From Clavaria fumosa (lineage: Eukaryota; Basidiomycota; Agaricomycetes; Agaricales; Clavariaceae), in contig OX637805.1 of the NCBI GenBank assembly GCA_951802425.1, forward strand, positions 1,550,001 through 1,614,000: a stretch of 64,000 bases of DNA. Direction: 5' to 3'. This document shows, piece after piece, positions 10,601 to 64,000 of the stretch. The first letter of the stretch is position 1. Every line of letters begins with the position of its first letter. Under the pieces are notes generated by a model. It saw only the letters and a program-made list of their open reading frames with translations. It searched no databases and was not told the origin of the DNA. Position numbers and translations under genes: made by a program.

Positions 10601-11422
10601 AAGCCGGAGCGACTTTCTGTCTTTCTTCAGAACGCAAAACCATTGAGATCAGTATGAGGAGTTTGATTCTTCATAGACTCCGGCAGCAATCTTTTCTTGG
10701 ATAACTTTTAAAACGTCATTGTAGATGCCGGGTGGGATCGGAATATTCTTGAAGACCCAAGGGATGTGTTCGACCGTCGGGATAATTATCGGATCGAAAT
10801 ATTTCGCGTCGAAACGTCCTTTTTCAGTCTCTTTGCAGGCGAAAGCATCCTCTTGGATCTTAATAAGATGGTGTATGAGTTTTTCTTCCTCCGGCCACAA
10901 GAATCCTGTTCGGTTGGCGTTATGTGCGTCCTTTCGATCCTGTGTGTACCTGGGGCCGGGAACGAACTCAGGCGGATGCTTTGGCAGGATAGGAATGTCG
11001 GCGAGGGGGTCCGGGTGTCGGCATCGGATGATCCGAAATTCTTCGGGAACGATTGCTTTAATCGGGTTGATGCGGTTGGCCACTTTCTTGTATTTCTTCC
11101 CGACATATACGGGTATAATTGCTTCTGTTGGTGATATTTCGATGGACTGGACATTGGAATAAAAGGTAGGCTGAGGTGATACCAGTGTCTCCGATGCTTT
11201 GTTAATGATTTTCGGAGGTCCGGATGGCTCGAGAGAGATGTCCCAAAAATAGGTGAATGGCAATGGGTCGAGAGTCATTGATGGTACAGATTGAGATGCG
11301 TGAAACGAATGAGCAGGAGATAATTGGACAGTTGGAGTATCGGATGTGGGTATAGCTTTGATTTTGGTGACCATCGGGTAATCGTCCGAAGATTTGGTCA
11401 GGTCCAATACTCCAGCTATCAA
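7658..11422 (-). pseudogene. Element D pol: RT, RNase H, integrase with four nonsense codons
   Basis: One continuous reading frame (frame 2 throughout) interrupted by TGA at 10649-10651, 9914-9916, 8717-8719 and 8663-8665. The RT has its catalytic FIDDVAIKG near 10280-10302. RNase H runs from about 9780 to 9430 with MAVDSSN and the final ADGLSRR. Integrase follows with the HHCC module (HDSLGHKG ... CHQCQ, about 8950-8845), then core segments VHIDTMFLP, ITDNGAPF and NSRANGVIERTHR. The C-terminal tail is acidic with no obvious chromodomain. All four stops can be explained by single C-to-T or G-to-A changes. Confidence 0.85.
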
Positions 11423-13854
11423 AAATCCGGATTGTTAGTTTTTGTTTTTAAAACTTTCCGGAGCGAAATTCTCTCCCTAGTCGGCACGATGATTCTCTCT
11501 CCAGTGTTCGGATCGTTTAGAATCAAGTCTTGGGCTCCGTGTGGGTGATCTATCATTTGCGATCTGGTCAGCATAAAGAACGGATGTCCGATAAGTACCT
11601 CGCATGGCAGGGTATCGGCAACCTGCATTTGGACGTGGAAGGTGCATGGTCCGATCTGTAATGGGAAATTCTTGATCTGTCCGAGTGTCGGTGCGATGGT
11701 GCCGTGTGAGGATTCCATGTGTAGTATACATTCGGAGTATAGGGGATTGCCGAGCCGCTCCCAAACGTCACGTCTCATTGCGACGATTGAGCTTCCCTGG
11801 TCTAGGAGACATTCTGCTGTGATCCGACCATCGAGGGTTCCTTCTACAATTCGGAGCGGTGTGGCGTCGACTGCTACGACGAGATCTGAGGTGTCCAGTG
11901 CGGCAGCGTCCGTAAATAACGTGTTCTGCAAAATGCCAGTGGTGACAGGAACTCGTTTAGCCGTTACCATGTCTTTCATCTTCTTTCGAACTTCTCCGGA
12001 AATCGCTAATAGTTCGCGCTGCGTCATCTGGACCAGGACATCGAGTGCCCAATCGAAAACTTGTTGAATGGTTTTCGGGTCTTCGACCAGTGCTTGGTAA
12101 TGGTATTGAACATCAGGCCGGTCGATCTTCGCGGGCTTTGTTGGTTGGGTGGTTGTTGGCGGGGTTATAACCACTGCAGGTAGAGGGGGCAGTCGAGATG
12201 GTTGCGGATCGTTGTTCCTGATGACGGGCATTCGCTTTTTTCCTTTGTCTACCTTCTTTGCAACTTCGTTAGCAAAAATGCGAGCCATGTCTTCCAGTTC
12301 AGCATCCGGTTGTTCTTCGTCGTCAGATGTGTTGTCCATGTCGGCATTGTCATCGGACATCATCATCGGCTTGACTTCAAACACGGCTGTTGTCGTCAGT
12401 TGTACGTTCTGGGACTGATATGTTGCATAGTACTTGTCGAAGCGTTCGGAGAGGTTCTTTCCAACGATAGAACCTGGTAGGTAGCGTCCGGAGGGTAAAC
12501 AAATCCTATTTTCGCTATTCCGGACACATTTCCCTGCTGCAATATACTCGAGGGCCTTCGGGCAGGCACTGATGAAGTGACCAGTTTCCGAGCAGAAATT
12601 ACATGTTCGGTTTATCGGTCCATTGATTGTCCTTGGTGCCGGTCGCTTGGCCGTGTCTTGGGATGATGCCGATAAAATAGATTCGAGCCGAGCCATGCTG
12701 GATGCAAAGGTCGCAAGGGCAGCCGATATGTCGAATTCTTCTTTCTTAATCTTGGGTTGCGCTTCTTTCCCGGGGGCTGCGGATGCGAAGCGGATGGTTC
12801 TGGAAGAATAGTCGGTGGACGCAGAAAGAGGGGACGTTGATGACAATAAAAATTCGGCAGCGGCATGTACTTCGTTCATCGGGTATGGATCCTCGGGGTG
12901 GTGGTCGGGAAGCTTTATTGCGAGCCTACTTTCAATCTGGCGTCTTGTGTGGTCACCAAATCCAAGAATGTATAGGTGGTTTTTGTCATTAGTGGTCATC
13001 CGCTGCGATTCTATGAGGTGTGAGGTAATGCGGAGGAAGTCCCTGTAATATTCTCCATGTTCGGCACGCATATATATGCCCTTTTGTGCCGAGTCCAATA
13101 TGAAACGATCAAGATCGGCGACGGAGAATAACCTTCCACCATCGGCACCTGGATACAGTCGTCGGACTGCTGCTTTAAACGTGTCCCAGGTCCAGGCTTC
13201 ATCTGGTGGTGGTGGTGTTAAGGTTTCCCATAAGAGGCAGGTATCGGTGTCGAGGTAGTGCTTTGCGTAGCAGATCAGGTCGGCTTCCGGAGCGTTGGGA
13301 TTCACGCCGGTGAGGATGATATGTATGTCTTCGAAGTATCTGTTGAGATGTGTCGGTACTCCGTCGAATACTGGTGCGCCGTGTGCGCCTCGGAGTGGAT
13401 ATCTCGCTTGATTGGCCATTTGCTGTTCGATGTCCAGTGGAAACTGTAAAATGTTCAGGTCGAGTGGTAATGGTGTGAGCGGTGACAGGGATGATTGTGG
13501 TTCGTCGGGTAGGAGCTGTGGTAAAGCGATAACTGGTGTATTGAAACTGGTGTGAGAGTATACAATGGAAGAGATGCTGGAGATATTTGATGGGTGAAGG
13601 TGAGAAGATTCGATAACTTCTCCAGATGGTTCAGATTGTGGCAAGTCCGATGTCGGTAGCTGAATCTGGGCTCTCAGGCGTTCGGAACGTCGAGGGTTGG
13701 ATGCTGATGATCCTCTTGGGATCCTCGAAGGTGGTTGTGAAGACGTTTTTGTGGCCCCCGCCTCGCGGTGGGCTCCAGAAATGTAGTAGGTATTACGTGT
13801 ATTGGCTGCAACTGCTTGATTACAGTCAAGTTCTTCAGGGGGGGTCTGACCCAA
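11419..13854 (-). CDS. Element D gag-protease
   Basis: An intact frame of up to 811 codons. The first Met (13854) lies inside the 5' LTR. A more natural start is the Met at 13419 (MANQARYPLRG), just before the capsid-like region. A CCHC knuckle CNFCSETGHFISACP lies near 12560-12600. The C-terminal region holds a retropepsin-like site with the variant ECLLDQGSSIVAMR near 11780-11820, where Asp-Gln-Gly-Ser replaces the usual Asp-Thr/Ser-Gly. The frame ends TGA at 11419-11421. Pol continues in the -1 frame. Confidence 0.85.
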   Translation of the reverse strand: MGQTPPEELDCNQAVAANTRNTYYISGAHREAGATKTSSQPPSRIPRGSSASNPRRSERLRAQIQLPTSDLPQSEPSGEVIESSHLHPSNISSISSIVYSHTSFNTPVIALPQLLPDEPQSSLSPLTPLPLDLNILQFPLDIEQQMANQARYPLRGAHGAPVFDGVPTHLNRYFEDIHIILTGVNPNAPEADLICYAKHYLDTDTCLLWETLTPPPPDEAWTWDTFKAAVRRLYPGADGGRLFSVADLDRFILDSAQKGIYMRAEHGEYYRDFLRITSHLIESQRMTTNDKNHLYILGFGDHTRRQIESRLAIKLPDHHPEDPYPMNEVHAAAEFLLSSTSPLSASTDYSSRTIRFASAAPGKEAQPKIKKEEFDISAALATFASSMARLESILSASSQDTAKRPAPRTINGPINRTCNFCSETGHFISACPKALEYIAAGKCVRNSENRICLPSGRYLPGSIVGKNLSERFDKYYATYQSQNVQLTTTAVFEVKPMMMSDDNADMDNTSDDEEQPDAELEDMARIFANEVAKKVDKGKKRMPVIRNNDPQPSRLPPLPAVVITPPTTTQPTKPAKIDRPDVQYHYQALVEDPKTIQQVFDWALDVLVQMTQRELLAISGEVRKKMKDMVTAKRVPVTTGILQNTLFTDAAALDTSDLVVAVDATPLRIVEGTLDGRITAECLLDQGSSIVAMRRDVWERLGNPLYSECILHMESSHGTIAPTLGQIKNFPLQIGPCTFHVQMQVADTLPCEVLIGHPFFMLTRSQMIDHPHGAQDLILNDPNTGERIIVPTRERISLRKVLKTKTNNPDF
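11422..11428 (-). other. Candidate -1 frameshift heptamer, element D
   Basis: The last gag codons are CCG GAT TTT followed by the TGA stop, so G GAT TTT lies in gag phase directly against the terminator. A -1 slip enters the pol frame (TTG ATA GCT). The same heptamer, again preceded by CC, occurs at the gag/pol overlap of the unrelated element A. Confidence 0.55.
13765..13778 (-). other. Possible primer-binding site of element D
   Basis: Inside the 5' LTR end the element strand reads TTTC then TGGAGCCCACC, beginning with the TGG expected to pair with a tRNA CCA end after a 4-nt gap. The tRNA is not identified. Confidence 0.35.
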
Positions 13855-57482: not shown

Positions 57483-59170
57483 TTAACGAGCCCATGTAAA
57501 CGAGCGACGGGTACACACCATTCCAGGAGGAAAATGGAAACCGCCAACAGATGGCGTAGTGGGACGTTTGCCTTCAGGTATAGCCGGAGCGCTTGGAATA
57601 CTTTGAACCTCACGGGGCACGATGGAGCCCGAGGAAGCAGTCGGGAGGACTCCACGCTGTTGTCGTTGGCGAATCTCGGAGTTGACTGGGTGGGTGTTGG
57701 CATCGGGGTGAACGGCTTTGTCGATCAATCGCGATTGTCCTGCGTTCTGCGGTCGGGTCGTTGTTATTTTGGATTGAGGAATCGTTGGTGCACATACTGG
57801 CGGCTGCACCAAAGTTCGTTGAAGACGTTGGTCGTGCGCGCTGCTCTTCAGGTCTGCAGTAGGTCGATGCGCCCCAGCCTGCTGTAATCGAGAAGGAGCC
57901 GCATTACTCGTTTGCCCCGGGCGGGCTACCACGTTGTGCACAAGGATCCCAGTAGCGGCTGATCCAGCAGCCATGGGCGCAACTTTATCACCAACGATGG
58001 TACGCGACGTCCGGCCTTCATCCCGACCGGTCTTGGACTCGCCAGCCTTATCCTCGAGCCTCGTTCGACGGCCGACAGTAACGTCGTCGCCCGGCAATGT
58101 ATCCGTGTCTCTCACCGCATCGAGGAAGGCAACGTCATCCGAATCGAATGTAAATGATTCATCTGCATTTGGGACATCAGCACCTGGTTCGACGAAGGCG
58201 ACGCGTCTATTGGTGGGTAGACATTGATTTTCCTGCTTCATTGCGTGGGATTGGGCAGTAGGAGTGGTCTTGGGAGTGCTGAGCCCCGTGGATAAGGTTG
58301 GTACAGCAGTCGCCTTGCCCTTGGGGACGCTCGATTCTGGACGTTTATGTTGGGTTACTGCTGTTCTTTGAGGCCGTGGAATCATGGCTTCGCCAGATGG
58401 GGCGCAAGGTTCGGATACCAATGACATCTCTGATTCAGGTGGACGCAACGGTTTTGCTTCTTCTATGTTTGGCCCACTATATAATTTGGATGGGTCAAAT
58501 TTGCGCTGATAATCATTAAATCAATATAGTTTCGTCACTGAGTTGGGTCTTACTGGAGGAGCTTTGAGCTTGACCACTTCCTGAGTGTAATGTTTGTCGT
58601 AGAGGCAATTGCCAAGCAAATTCCCGAAATTTCTCAGAGCGCGTTTCAATCCATCTGTAACGGCTTCCTTCTTACACTAGTACCCATCAGCTTGTTAAAA
58701 ATAATGTGTAGATAAATTCAGACCTTGTCTAGAGCGGCTCCTTTGCTTTTCGAATTCTCAGCGGTCCCATAACCAATGTCTTCATGATACGTCCCATCTC
58801 TCAACGTCACCCTCACAATCGCCGTGACGCCTGCGTTGCACCTCTTCGATTCCTCGTTGACGTCAATGAAGTCTGTTGTCAAACTGATAACGCTCGAACT
58901 CCAGCCGTTGAAGCCGAAAACTTCATTCGCAATCTGTATTAACTTCCAACCCTCGACATACGTCAGCCTTGGGCCACCCCCTGGACCGGGTCGCTGAGAG
59001 ATGTGTTCGGGGCCAAGCCTCCGGTTAAGCTGAACTTGGAGACTCGCAGTCTTTGTCGCCGTGGCCTCACACATGTCCATGAATGATGGGTCCAGGCGGA
59101 ATGATGTTTCCGGTCGGCTCTGGAGCGACAAATTTCTATAGCCAGCGAGCTGCGAGGTGCCTTCCATCAT
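57483..59170 (-). CDS. RAD52: DNA repair protein Rad52
   Basis: Recombination mediator that anneals DNA strands and loads Rad51. Exons 59170-58724, 58670-58554 and 58505-57483 close in phase to 528 residues. The N-terminal annealing domain shows [77 protein letters not shown] and then [20 protein letters not shown]. The C-terminal half is disordered and Pro/Ser/Thr-rich with an acidic [16 protein letters not shown] patch. It ends GGFHFPPGM and a short basic tail. Met at 59167 is an alternative start. Confidence 0.92.
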
Positions 59171-59532
59171 GTTGATACAAATTTCAAGTTTCAAGCGCAA
59201 TAGGACGCGTTTGACGCCGAGCTGACAGAAGTTTGGTTTGGTCGATAATATGCGCGTCCCGCGCTCGCGAGCCTCTCCACCACGTGATCTGTTCCCTGGT
59301 TGTGATGTCAGTGTCACATTGTCACACCTGTCAGTGCACATCACAATGTGCAACCGTGACACTGTCGCCAACAACCAGTTCGGCGCGCTGTCAGACTTGA
59401 AATTTGGGCTAAGGATCTCTTCCGTGCCCTACTGGCTACCCGTTCGCCATGGTGAGCGATGCTACCTCATTGCAAAAAGGCCGTTCGTATTGAACATCAC
59501 TCCAGGATATTCACACGCAGTTCCTCAAGTTC
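59171..59532. other. Divergent intergenic region RAD52 / F-box gene
   Basis: Contains ATRATATT-like and Mlu-like short motifs but nothing I can call with confidence; promoter region for both neighbours. Confidence 0.35.
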
Positions 59533-60555
59533 ATGGCGAACGAGGATATTTTTTATCCTGATCATGCTGGATGCCTCCGGGCCGGCCTACCCACTACGCC
59601 ATCTCGTCGTATCACTTTGCGAAGGCGCCTCAGTGGAAATTTGGCGTTCATCGAACGACTCCCAAACGAAATCCTCGGAGTCATCTTTACTTTTTGCCTC
59701 CCGAAGTATGAACATTTGCTGCCCCACATTGCAGACGCTCCGCTGCTTCTCTGCCATGTCTGCAGCACTTGGCGCAAAGTTGCCATAGGCATTCCACAAC
59801 TGTGGGACTCGCTAATGTTTGTCCTTCCACCAAAGACGACATCAAAAGCCGTCTCATTCGGCGCAACAACTTGGTTGAGCCGCTCTGGCATTCTACCGTT
59901 GAAGATACGACTGGACGCTCACCCGGCTTATAAAGTCCCTGTTGACTTTTTCGACATCTTCGCACCCTACTTCCCACGTTGGCACAACCTTAAACTTCAC
60001 ATCACAAGTGACGCGCTTGAAACGCTCCTCCGTCACCCTATGGCCTGGTCTCAACTGACCACATTCAAACTGAGTTCAGATGTATCATTAGTCGATTGCT
60101 TTTCCATCCTCGTGCGATGTCCCAAGCTTCAAGAATGCTTTTTTATGCGCGTCATGGAGCCTTACAGTCGAACGCCCCCTCCCAATATCATTCCACTCCG
60201 GAATTTACATCAGCTCAAAATCTACGGGCGCGGTGATCTATACGCCATTCTCGATTGCTTAGAGACTCCGCAGTTACGTGACCTGGAGATTACTTTCTAT
60301 TTCCCAGCCCCTTGGCAGAAGCAGCGAATGCTTGCTGTGTTCACCAGGTCCAGATGTCCGCTACAACGCCTCACCATAGAAGGCCTCGATATTCCCGAGG
60401 CGGATATGCTGGATTGCGCGCGAAGACTCCCGGATCTGCTTGATTTTACGGCGGTTTTTGGCGGCAAAAATCTTGTCCCGCCAAAGGTTGTGGAGATTAT
60501 ACAAAAACGGCGTGACCGAATCGCACATCGTGAGGGCACACGCGCAGCACCATGA
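59533..60555 (+). CDS. F-box protein
   Basis: Single exon, 340 residues, ATG 59533 in the context ttcATGgcg. The F-box is at about residues 40-95 (IERLPNEILGVIFTFCLP...LLCHVCSTWRKVAIGIPQLWDSL), the Skp1-binding module that places substrates in SCF ubiquitin ligases. The rest has irregular leucine-rich segments (LTTFKLSSD, LVRCPKLQECFF, LRNLHQLKIYG, LRDLEITFYF, LQRLTIEGLDI), like the large lineage-specific F-box families of Agaricomycetes. Substrate unknown. Confidence 0.85.
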   Translation: MANEDIFYPDHAGCLRAGLPTTPSRRITLRRRLSGNLAFIERLPNEILGVIFTFCLPKYEHLLPHIADAPLLLCHVCSTWRKVAIGIPQLWDSLMFVLPPKTTSKAVSFGATTWLSRSGILPLKIRLDAHPAYKVPVDFFDIFAPYFPRWHNLKLHITSDALETLLRHPMAWSQLTTFKLSSDVSLVDCFSILVRCPKLQECFFMRVMEPYSRTPPPNIIPLRNLHQLKIYGRGDLYAILDCLETPQLRDLEITFYFPAPWQKQRMLAVFTRSRCPLQRLTIEGLDIPEADMLDCARRLPDLLDFTAVFGGKNLVPPKVVEIIQKRRDRIAHREGTRAAP

Positions 60556-60892: not shown

Positions 60893-62716
60893 ATGAACAA
60901 ACCGTCCTACAGCGAGCAAGATTTCAAGCGTTTTGTCGAACACCTTAAGCCAAATGAGCACTCCAATCTCTTCGTCGGGTTCAACCACCACGAAATTAGC
61001 GAAATATTACAGGACACTCCATTCTACACTAAGGAGAGACAACACATTCCTGATCTCAAGGCTCTATACGATCACCTCGGTCCCATAGGCTATCATCGTC
61101 TCTTACCACCTTACCATCCCCCAGTCAATTTCGAAGGGAAACCCAATATGACCGTACAGATTAAGTCACTGAGAATCGAGTATTATGACAAGATGACCAA
61201 CAAGTTGAAGCTAAACATCGAGCTAGTGGCGTTGTGGGAGGTAGCTCTGAGCGAGTTTCGCGAAGGTGTGTACACAGATGATGGTGGCACCAATCTACCT
61301 GTGCGTCGTTTACTGGTTGATTTGACATTGACATTTTTAACACCTTGAACTTCGACAACTGTTAGACTTATCCAAAGTTACCATCCGACTCGCAAATGCA
61401 TATTTTCAAGCAGAATGCTTCTAAGGACAAGTCTTTTACTGGGCCAGGATTGCTTCTCAAAGCCACAGAAGGACCTCGCGATGCTCCTTTCTATGCAGGA
61501 GAAGACCTAGAGCCTGCAAAATTCATCTTCAAAACCGCAAATCCCCTTCCTGGCAAAAAGCGATATGGCAAGTTTGTCAAATTTCAATTTCAATCTAGGG
61601 CAGTGCATACGTATGACGTTGTGACCGAAGGCAGGCTATTATTCCCTATAATCATCTCATCGGGATGTGACAAATCTTGAACAGGGAATTATAAGGAGTT
61701 CCCTTTCGACACCAAGACCATTGTACTTCATTTCACCTCAGACGTTATCAACAGCCGTACGTCCAATGTCATAGCCCTAACCGATTTTGACGTGAATATC
61801 ATCAGAGATCAAATTCAAGGAGCCAGACAATCCAAATGATATTAAAAAAATCGTCCAATCGTTGAAGGCTCGTTCTCGAACGAACGAATGGATAACCAGC
61901 GGTAGGTTGATATCCTCTAAGTGTGGGATGCTCTAGATTTCAATATCTTACTTTGTGTCTTTCAGAACGGGACATCGACATCAAGCTGCTCCACCGCGAC
62001 CTCCATTTCAAGGATTGGCCACAAGACCCCCAACACACAAAGAGGTCTAAGGTATGATCATCGATGGAACCGCTAATATTCATCTGGTATATCTAATCAT
62101 TGTGCAAGATTGTGTTGACGGCCCGATTCAAGCGAAGCTGGCCATACTGGTTTATGAAAATGGTTCTTCCTATGGATATCATTACATTCATCGGCATCAG
62201 CGTGTTACTGCTGGTTCCGGCCATTGGTGATGTCGGTCCGAGTGCGTCGGAACGCATCGCTATGGTGGGACTTACTGTATCTGTCCTTCTTGCACAGGTG
62301 AATGCATTTGAACCTAATGATGGTTGCAACTCAAATATATCAATTTAGGCAGCATTCACAATCGCCGTCCAGCCAATGCTTCCTGACATTGCCTATGTTA
62401 CTATAATGGACATACACAATAACTTCTGCTTCTTGTGCGCCGACCGGTATTTGTATTGTATTCTGCAGCTGATGATACGGGGTGTAGGGTCACAGCAGCC
62501 GAGTCCATTACCTTTGCCGTGATACCGGCAGATTTATGGGCTATCTTCCGCAAATCCCCGACAATCTACCTCGTTTGGGGTGCAGCACAGTTCATACTGT
62601 TGGCGGAACAACTAGTGCTTTGCTATCCTTTACTTCTGCGTAAGGCGCCAGTCACGAAGGATAGTGCGCTAGAAGAAGTAGTTTTCGGACCCGGGGGCGG
62701 GGGCGGGCCCACCTGA
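60893..62716 (+). CDS. Pentameric ligand-gated ion channel-like protein, copy 1
   Basis: Proposed exons 60893-61300, 61366-61666, 61685-61756, 61806-61901, 61966-62051, 62109-62297, 62349-62434 and 62488-62716 close in phase to 488 residues. Residues 1-90 are a lineage-specific extension with no signal peptide. The first ligand-domain strands read MTVQIKSLRIEYYDK and LNIELVALWE. The loop motif NYKEFPFDTKTIVLHF is at 238-253, lacking the animal Cys pair (Pro-loop type). RTNEW and a basic pre-M1 ARFKRSW follow. M1 has its proline (MVLPMDIITFIGISVLLLV, about 338-356). M2 begins SERIAMVGLTVSVLLAQAAF (about 366-385). The M2-M3 loop is LPDIAYVTIMD; M3 and M4 (SPTIYLVWGAAQFILLAEQL) follow. It should form a homopentameric, probably cation-selective channel. 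One proposed intron is only 18 nt; without it an in-frame TGA remains. Confidence 0.8.
61667..61684 (+). other. 18-nt GT...AG segment containing TGA, copy 1
   Basis: GTGACAAATCTTGAACAG starts GT, ends AG and contains the only in-frame stop in this part. Removing it keeps phase and joins IIISSG to WNYKEFPFD. Eighteen nt is far below normal intron size. The same segment, with one change, is in copy 2 at 63924-63941. Confidence 0.5.
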
Positions 62717-63170
62717 TTCCAAGCTTAATGTAAGTCTTTTCTACTGCTCATAAGCACCAGCCAGATCCTTAGGATGACTGTCTTGCAATCCACTTTATTC
62801 CTTCAGCCAGCATGGTTTGTTCTTGCGGATAACTTATTTTCTGTAGGCTAGGGTATGTCTCTTGTTCGCACATGTTCCTCAATCAACTCTTGTTTGGGGA
62901 GGGCCTTGGGGTCTTCCTCAGTTGTGCTATGAACAGGCGGAGAGAGCAAAGGCAACACCCACAACCTACTTCGCCCGCCGCTCTTTGTCGTTGGCTTCTC
63001 CTGTCGCTTCCATTTACGGGACTTTCACTTGAGATAACCGCGTCCCTGAGGAGTAGCGCCCAGATAACGAAAGCCCACACGCAACGTTCCCACACAGGAG
63101 CGATAACCAGTACCCATTCATCCTCTGGCATCTTCGGGCTGAGAGACCTGCATCCTCCGCTGATACATCA
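62717..63170. other. Spacer between the two channel genes
   Basis: 454 bp holding the 3' end of copy 1 and the 5' region of copy 2. An open stretch from 62872 has no domain and is not called. Confidence 0.5.
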
Positions 63171-64000
63171 ATGACAGACAAGCCGTACGACGAGGAAGAT
63201 TTCAAGCATTTTGCCGAATACCTTGGGCCAAATGAGCGCCCCAATCTCTTCGTCGGGTTCAACCACCACGAAATTAGCGAAATTTTACAGGAGCGTCCAT
63301 TCTCCACTAGGAAGGGACAACACATTACCGATCTCAAGGCTCTATACGAACACCTCGGTTACACAGGCTATCATCGTCTCTTACCACCTTATCATCCCCC
63401 AGTCAATTTCGAAGGGAAACCCAGCATGACCGTACAGATTGGGTCACTGAGAATCGAGTGTTATAACAAGACGACTAACAAGATGAAAGTGCATATTGAG
63501 CTAGTGGCGTTGTGGGAGGCAGCTCTGAGCGAGTATCGCGAAGGTGTGTACAACGATTATTGTGATAACACCAATCTGCCTGTGCGTCGTTTACGGGTCG
63601 ATTCGACGTTTACATTTTTAACACCTTGAACTTTGACAACCATTAGACTTATCCAAAGTTACCACCCGACACGCAAATGCATATTTTCAATCAGAATGCC
63701 GTTAGGCACATATCTTTTCTAGAATTGTTTCTCAAGGCCACAGAAGGACATCGCGATACTCCTTTCCACGCAGGAGAAGTCCTAGAGTCTGCAAGATTCC
63801 TCTTCGAATCCGCGAGTCTCCCTACATCTGGCAAGCTTGTCAAATTTCAATCTAGGGCAGTGCATACATATGACGTTGTGACCGAAGGCACGCTATTACT
63901 CCCTTTAATCATCTCATCGGGATGTGACGAATCTTGAACAGGGAATTATAAGGAATTCCCTTTCGACACCAAAACCATTATACATCATTTCACCTCAAGC
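63171..64000 (+). CDS. Pentameric ligand-gated ion channel-like protein, copy 2 (partial)
   Basis: Tandem paralogue of 60893-62716, truncated by the window edge. Exon 1 63171-63581 (MTDKPYDEEDFKHFAEYLG...) ends at the same LP|GTGCGT donor as copy 1. Intron 63582-63646 and exon 2 63647-63923 follow. The same 18-nt GT...AG segment (63924-63941) precedes the NYKEFPFDTKTI loop. The sequence ends shortly after. Relative to copy 1 it has substitutions throughout and a shorter loop (PTSGKLVKFQ) in the ligand domain. Both copies keep the conserved features, so both look selected. Transmembrane part not visible. Confidence 0.75.

Follow-up and report, generated by a model that had tools for sequence, protein, structure and literature searches.

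A locally duplicated fungal gene family that probably encodes Cys-less pentameric ligand-gated ion channel subunits

The fungal genes described here are probably members of a small, locally duplicated family encoding Cys-less (Pro-loop) subunits of pentameric ligand-gated ion channels (pLGICs). The window, a stretch of 64,000 bases corresponding to bases 1550001–1614000 of contig 12 in an assembly of 48.8 Mb and 17 contigs, contains one complete pLGIC-like gene (copy 1) and the beginning of a second (copy 2), which are 80% identical. The original prediction had described these as a tandem pair. Tandem duplication was borne out but the number of copies was underestimated, as the contig DNA beyond the window completes a head-to-tail array of three genes (60893–62716, 63171–64967 and 65435–67187, counted in the frame of the window). 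Of these, copy 2 is cut by the end of the window, and copy 3 falls entirely outside it. A whole-genome search with copy 1 located an intact copy 4 and a truncated copy 5 some 230 kb from the array, also on contig 12. The five copies are listed below, with positions on contig 12 itself marked C12.

60893..62716, + strand: copy 1, 8 exons, 476 aa, TGA stop; 44.3 bits against the pLGIC profile
63171..64000, + strand: the part of copy 2 in the window, with exons at 63171–63581, 63647–63887 and from 63942 onward; the full gene runs to window-frame position 64967 and encodes 468 aa
65435–67187 (window frame), + strand: copy 3, 453 aa
C12:1381595–1379834, - strand: copy 4, intact, 465 aa, from the whole-genome search with copy 1
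about C12:1379380–1377980, - strand: copy 5, broken, with an in-frame stop and apparent frame breaks, ending early in M3

All gene models were predicted from sequence alone, by fitting each to splice signals and to the other copies. Copy 1 had been read as a full-length subunit of 488 residues; it is indeed a complete gene of eight exons, but its product is 476 residues long, and the two sets of splice sites differ somewhere. The present model includes a GC-AG intron 2 and places intron 7 at 62435–62487. All of the landmarks named for copy 1 were recovered, namely the MTVQI strand, FPFD, a basic pre-M1, the M1 proline, SER before M2, LPDIAYVTIMD, M3 and M4. The model of copy 1 is as follows.

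60893..61300, + strand: exon 1, an N-terminal extension of ~85 aa followed by a predicted beta1-beta2 that carries the conserved Trp W115
61301..61365, + strand: intron 1, GT-AG, phase 0, at a position common to all four intact copies
61366..61630, + strand: exon 2, mid extracellular domain
61631..61684, + strand: intron 2, GC-AG
61685..61756, + strand: exon 3, with the Pro-loop FPFD at 61699–61710
61757..61805, + strand: intron 3, GT-AG, phase 1
61806..61901, + strand: exon 4, with the beta9 Trp W277 at 61889–61891
61902..61965, + strand: intron 4, GT-AG, phase 1
61966..62051, + strand: exon 5, end of the extracellular domain
62052..62108, + strand: intron 5, GT-AG, phase 0
62109..62297, + strand: exon 6, with the pre-M1 Arg R318 (62133–62135), M1 (~62145–62219), an extended M1-M2 loop and the first part of M2 (from ~62250)
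62298..62348, + strand: intron 6, GT-AG, phase 0, within M2
62349..62434, + strand: exon 7, with the end of M2 (~62369), the M2-M3 loop and its conserved Pro, and the start of M3 (~62385)
62435..62487, + strand: intron 7, GT-AG, phase 2, within M3
62488..62716, + strand: exon 8, with the end of M3 (~62521), a short M3-M4 loop, M4 (~62561–62638) and the C-terminal tail

The conserved introns claimed for the pair extend to the whole set: all seven are found at matching positions in each of the four intact copies, with lengths of 49–65 bases in copy 1 and 48–65 bases over the four. Intron 2 has a GC-AG boundary in copies 1–3 and GT-AG in copy 4, and the GT-AG at the same site supports the unusual boundary in the others. 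The predicted exons of copies 1–4 contain no stop or frameshift. Exon lengths among them differ by multiples of three only (exon 2, for example, is 265, 241, 217 and 253 bases long), whereas the differences between intron lengths (1, 2, 4, 6 and other values) are not confined to multiples of three. Hydropathy and alignment place four hydrophobic segments (M1–M4) in each of the four copies, after a predicted extracellular domain of ~200 aa. Structure prediction covered exon 1 of copy 1, as one contiguous stretch of the window, and gave helices followed by two long strands at low confidence (pLDDT 51, pTM 0.39, 2 sequences).

The relationship to pLGICs was assessed against 46 proteins gathered with a GLIC homologue as query, 38 of which were aligned as a pLGIC profile. 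Comparison of the four fungal copies with these 38 proteins by hhalign gave a probability of 96.3, an E value of 1.8e-9 and a score of 74.0, over 256 columns that run in register and in the correct order from beta1 to M3. The best of 60 profiles with shuffled fungal columns (blocks of 20) scored 31.4, and the reversed profile 19.1. The membrane half alone reached 50.5 against a best of 19.6 in 40 shuffles, while the extracellular half alone (residues 86–309) reached 26.1 against a best of 19.4 in 40 shuffles, in an alignment of only 38 columns. For the first 85 residues alone there was no match, their score of 12.4 falling below the best of 20 shuffles (24.0). A profile HMM built from the 38 pLGICs scored 42.2–49.1 bits in all four intact copies, compared with a best of 1.8 bits among 525 control ORFs (at least 60 aa, stop to stop, six frames, window positions 1–60800). 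In the reverse direction, the fungal HMM matched 9 of the 46 pLGIC proteins at the filters used, with a maximum of 20.1 bits.

An HMM search with the two pLGIC domain families, proposed as a check on the original prediction, gave a match to one of them. PF02932 matched all four copies below its cut-off of 28.1 bits (20.3, 18.1, 14.4 and 14.9 bits in copies 1–4). Three of six control pLGICs also fell under this cut-off (the GLIC homologue at 24.1 bits, others at 24.7 and 23.2) and three exceeded it (41.4, 46.6 and 58 bits). When whole genomes were searched, homologues of ELIC and GLIC scored 23 and 21.9 bits, so the fungal match is near that of a distant member. PF02931, the ligand-binding domain, found no match at E ≤ 1 in any of the four copies; all six control pLGICs passed its cut-off (60.3–96.8 bits). 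This is a real difference and counts against an ordinary member of the superfamily, although PF02931 models the known members and is not a defining trait.

Against PDB sequences, copy 1 had 32 matches at E ≤ 10, comprising 29 pLGICs and three of a Mediator subunit (best E 0.02), and a three-copy profile had 21, of which 20 were pLGICs (best E 0.092). None of these is significant singly, and their weight lies in their consistency. Together with the profile comparison, the result for the membrane domain by itself, the sub-threshold PF02932 matches in four of four copies and the seven conserved positions considered below, they support the pLGIC membership that had been proposed. The evidence is strong for the membrane domain and weak for the extracellular domain taken alone.

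Close relatives did not emerge from wider searches. Within a collection of 5.8 billion protein sequences, copy 1 as a whole had no match at E ≤ 0.01 among the 7997 candidates sharing most words, and its residues 300–445 had none at E ≤ 10 among 604 candidates; the collection includes some uniref and nr entries, and absence from it is weak evidence. No relatives were confirmed in prokaryote genomes and viral contigs, which were scanned by just two short peptide patterns. When PF02932, PF02931 or one bacterial pLGIC was used to search the fungal genome itself, nothing was returned, but the family controls were silent too, so this shows little. One weak match on contig 10 (E 0.008, in the whole-genome search with copy 1) was dropped, as by eye its frames look like a wax-synthase-type gene. 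In a tree of the membrane half, the four copies formed a clade set apart by a very long branch (5.3 changes per column), and a placement was not obtained; its 46 rows, left after 5 of 51 were removed as chimeras or fragments, include no full animal or protist sequence. The closer resemblance to prokaryotic than to animal channels that had been proposed drew no support from this tree.

Seven positions are listed as conserved through the pLGIC superfamily in Table 1 of the survey by Jaiteh et al. (2016; PMC4795631): F/Y, P, D, the beta9 W, the pre-M1 R, the M1 P and the M2-M3 P. All seven are kept in all four fungal copies (F230, P231, D233, W277, R318, P330 and P384 in copy 1 numbering). Residue counts were made against 47 comparators, namely the 46 gathered proteins (three laboratory chimeras and one fragment included) and an ELIC homologue. 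The Pro-loop FPFD, present in four of four copies, aligns with the F/Y-P-x-D of beta6-beta7, whose P and D occur in 47 of 47 comparators, and the beta2 Trp is likewise kept in every copy and every comparator. Leu occupies the 9' position of M2 in all four copies and in 43 of the 47 comparators; the survey gives 75% for this residue in the family and 79% for a basic residue at 0' (PMC4795631). The copies had also been described as Cys-less, which stands: none of the four has two Cys in the Cys-loop arrangement. In copy 3 a Cys precedes the loop and another follows it, but the two are 38 residues from each other.

Among known systems, the prokaryotic Cys-less pLGICs (GLIC, ELIC and relatives) share with the fungal copies a Cys-free Pro-loop, the pre-M1 Arg, the M1 Pro, L9', the M2-M3 Pro and a short M3-M4 loop; identity to them is at most 29% over residues 310–414 (GLIC, 27 of 94 columns). 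Unlike them, the fungal genes have introns, an N-terminus of ~85 aa that is unmatched and no visible signal peptide; their M1-M2 is longer and their M3-M4 shorter, and they lack the 0' basic residue and the PF02931 match. The Asp and Arg of the W-x-D-x-R-L stretch, which is invariant in the 38 aligned pLGICs, are also missing from the fungal copies. The animal anion-type Cys-loop receptors (GABA-A and glycine) are alike in the M2-M3 region, with VGL at 1'–3' and LPxxxYVxxxDI...C.L; this region resembles the glycine-receptor membrane domain carried in a GLIC chimera, and many of the PDB matches were GABA-A subunits. Typical animal Cys-loop receptors have Pro at -2', Arg at 0' and a long cytoplasmic loop, none of which is found in the fungal copies, nor is the Cys-loop pair. 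The Cys-less pLGICs of protists and invertebrates, likened here by description only (Jaiteh et al., 2016), share a eukaryotic host, the absence of the Cys pair and the seven conserved positions.

If the fungal proteins work as pLGICs do, each subunit would begin with the N-terminal extension, continue into a beta-sandwich that closes with the Pro-loop region, and then form four membrane helices. Such subunits, five to a channel and drawn from a single intact gene or from several of the four, would assemble at the cell surface around a pore lined by M2, with the Leu at 9' as the putative gate. A stimulus would bind the beta-sandwich, and the signal may then pass through the pair formed by the Pro-loop Asp and the pre-M1 Arg, and through the M2-M3 loop, to open the pore.

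An unlikely reading, but the one that fares best among the alternatives, is that the genes are relics, i.e., true descendants of pLGICs that are no longer receptors and are drifting or becoming pseudogenes, with frames still open since duplication and gene conversion were recent. The dN/dS ratios (Nei-Gojobori), which are point values from four sequences, bear on this in both directions. For the extracellular domain they were 0.90–1.16 among copies 1, 2 and 4, as might be expected of drift, and 0.61–0.71 against copy 3. For the membrane domain they were 0.53–0.72 among copies 1, 2 and 4 and fell to 0.32–0.39 in the three comparisons with copy 3, which speaks against decay. Among copies 1, 2 and 4, introns 6 and 7 have hardly diverged (p-distance 0.02–0.06), whereas introns 1 and 3 differ by 0.11–0.20; this suggests gene conversion across the 3' half of these copies, and a homogenised 3' half would suit a relic family, as would the missing signal peptide and the plainly broken copy 5, which ends beside repeat sequence. 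Relics would less readily account for four genes free of stops and frameshifts in their predicted exons, for exon length differences that are all multiples of three, or for the retention of all seven conserved positions in every one of them. The membrane domain looks constrained, and the sensing half may be either diversifying or relaxed.

Somewhat less probable again is a membrane protein derived from pLGICs with another job or orientation, whose N-terminal half may stay cytosolic, so that the channel would be gated from within the cell or reside in an internal membrane. A signal peptide is usual in the pLGIC family. None was visible in the four copies by hydropathy (the best 11-residue window of the first 60 residues had a mean of 0.32–1.01), and a scan for hydrophobic ATG-started exons within 900 bases upstream found no signal exon common to the four; it is mainly this that raises doubt about orientation. 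The upstream scan did give candidates in each copy, however, and one hydrophobic ATG-started stretch, some 300 bases upstream, occurs in both copy 2 and copy 3 but not in copies 1 and 4; a first exon could also lie beyond the 900 bases searched. Large N-terminal domains can, moreover, be translocated by a reverse signal-anchor, and the conserved Pro-loop and pre-M1 pair favour the usual arrangement of domains. The duplicated pair had been taken to argue for a working receptor, and that claim is weakened by the absence of a visible signal peptide and by the extracellular-domain dN/dS near 1 in copies 1, 2 and 4.

The membrane domain also departs from that of typical members, and its spacings would fit another job or orientation. 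From the M1 Pro to Leu 9' there are 40 residues in the fungal proteins and 29–32 in the comparators; between the M2-M3 Pro and the beginning of M4 the counts are 38 and 44–47 (46 of the 47 comparators were measurable, one having no residues there). The 0' position of M2 is Met in all four copies, with no basic residue; among the 47 comparators it is R in 34, Q or N in 12 and a gap in one. A basic residue at 0' is not universal in the pLGIC family. Given the Met at 0', no prediction of ion selectivity was made.

The Pfam matches under the curated cut-off and the lack of any match in the 5.8-billion-sequence collection would be congenial to an unrelated four-helix membrane protein that resembles pLGICs by chance. 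Such a coincidence is very improbable given the shuffle and ORF controls and the seven conserved positions, all present in order.

The array is flanked on its upstream side by a Rad52 gene and an F-box-like gene and on its downstream side by RRP46 and HIT genes, and is therefore part of the fungal chromosome. The assembly contains 23 matches to Fungal_trans, three to hydrophobin and five to DUF6533, which we take to be fungal families, and none of the three was matched in 14 control genomes. The short spliceosomal-type introns, the Rad52, RRP46 and HIT neighbours and these families support a fungal origin of the genes, as the argument against contamination from introns kept across the copies had already held. 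Contaminating DNA from another organism, in keeping with a 2016 survey that detected no fungal pLGIC (PMC4795631), is the least credible explanation of all, as the genes lie at two separate sites within a 2.6 Mb contig, carry introns of 48–65 bases in four copies and, at copy 5, adjoin within about 60 bases a repeat that occurs at many other places in the assembly (at least 42 matches, itself included).

The belief that no fungal member was previously known agrees with the literature as far as it was covered: pLGICs were not detected in Fungi by the dedicated survey of the superfamily (Jaiteh et al., 2016; PMC4795631), and no later report of a fungal pLGIC was found in titles or abstract starts among the matches listed in a literature search. 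On our preferred reading, as a family of Cys-less pLGIC subunits, these genes would be fungal relatives of the animal neurotransmitter receptors and the bacterial receptor-channels, and would fill the fungal gap in that survey. They may further represent, though we offer this only tentatively, a fungal Cys-less lineage that lacks a signal peptide and has a remodelled membrane domain, its M1-M2 loop lengthened and its M3-M4 loop shortened. The sensing domain of such a lineage would be diversifying fast in tandem arrays and possibly face the cytosol, perhaps through an inverted topology. If true, this would extend receptor-channel systems beyond animals, bacteria, archaea and protists. The family would provide a natural test of how much latitude the pLGIC fold allows in the length of its loops, its signal peptide and the charge of its pore, and a means of learning what these channels respond to in an organism without nerves.

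The array of three head-to-tail pLGIC-like genes has a Rad52 family gene just upstream, and its immediate downstream neighbours are the RRP46 exosome subunit and HIT-domain genes:

window 58718-59428, minus strand: Rad52 family gene (PF04098, 128.6 bits)
window 59533-60555, plus strand: single-exon F-box-like ORF (PF12937, slightly below its cut-off)
window-frame 67707-69505 (7707-9505 of L001, contig DNA that runs past the window end): RRP46 exosome subunit gene and HIT-domain gene

Elsewhere in the window, an ORF with an aspartyl protease match is possibly part of a retroelement:

window 11419-13854, minus strand: 811-aa ORF (PF13650)

The truncated fifth copy, in the C12 stretch that also carries copy 4 (L013), ends close to a repeat sequence:

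C12:1377971-1377501 (L013:2002-2472), minus strand: the 471 bases that follow the fifth copy, with genome matches to parts of them

Parts of these 471 bases are matched at many places in the genome. Several of the matches form pairs in opposite orientation with a spacing of about 1.2-1.4 kb, a layout like that of an element whose ends are inverted.

Introns 6 and 7, in the 3' half of the gene, are nearly identical among copies 1 and 2 of the array and copy 4 in L013. This near identity of intron sequence suggests that gene conversion has occurred between the two pLGIC-like arrays, which lie 230 kb from each other in opposite orientation.
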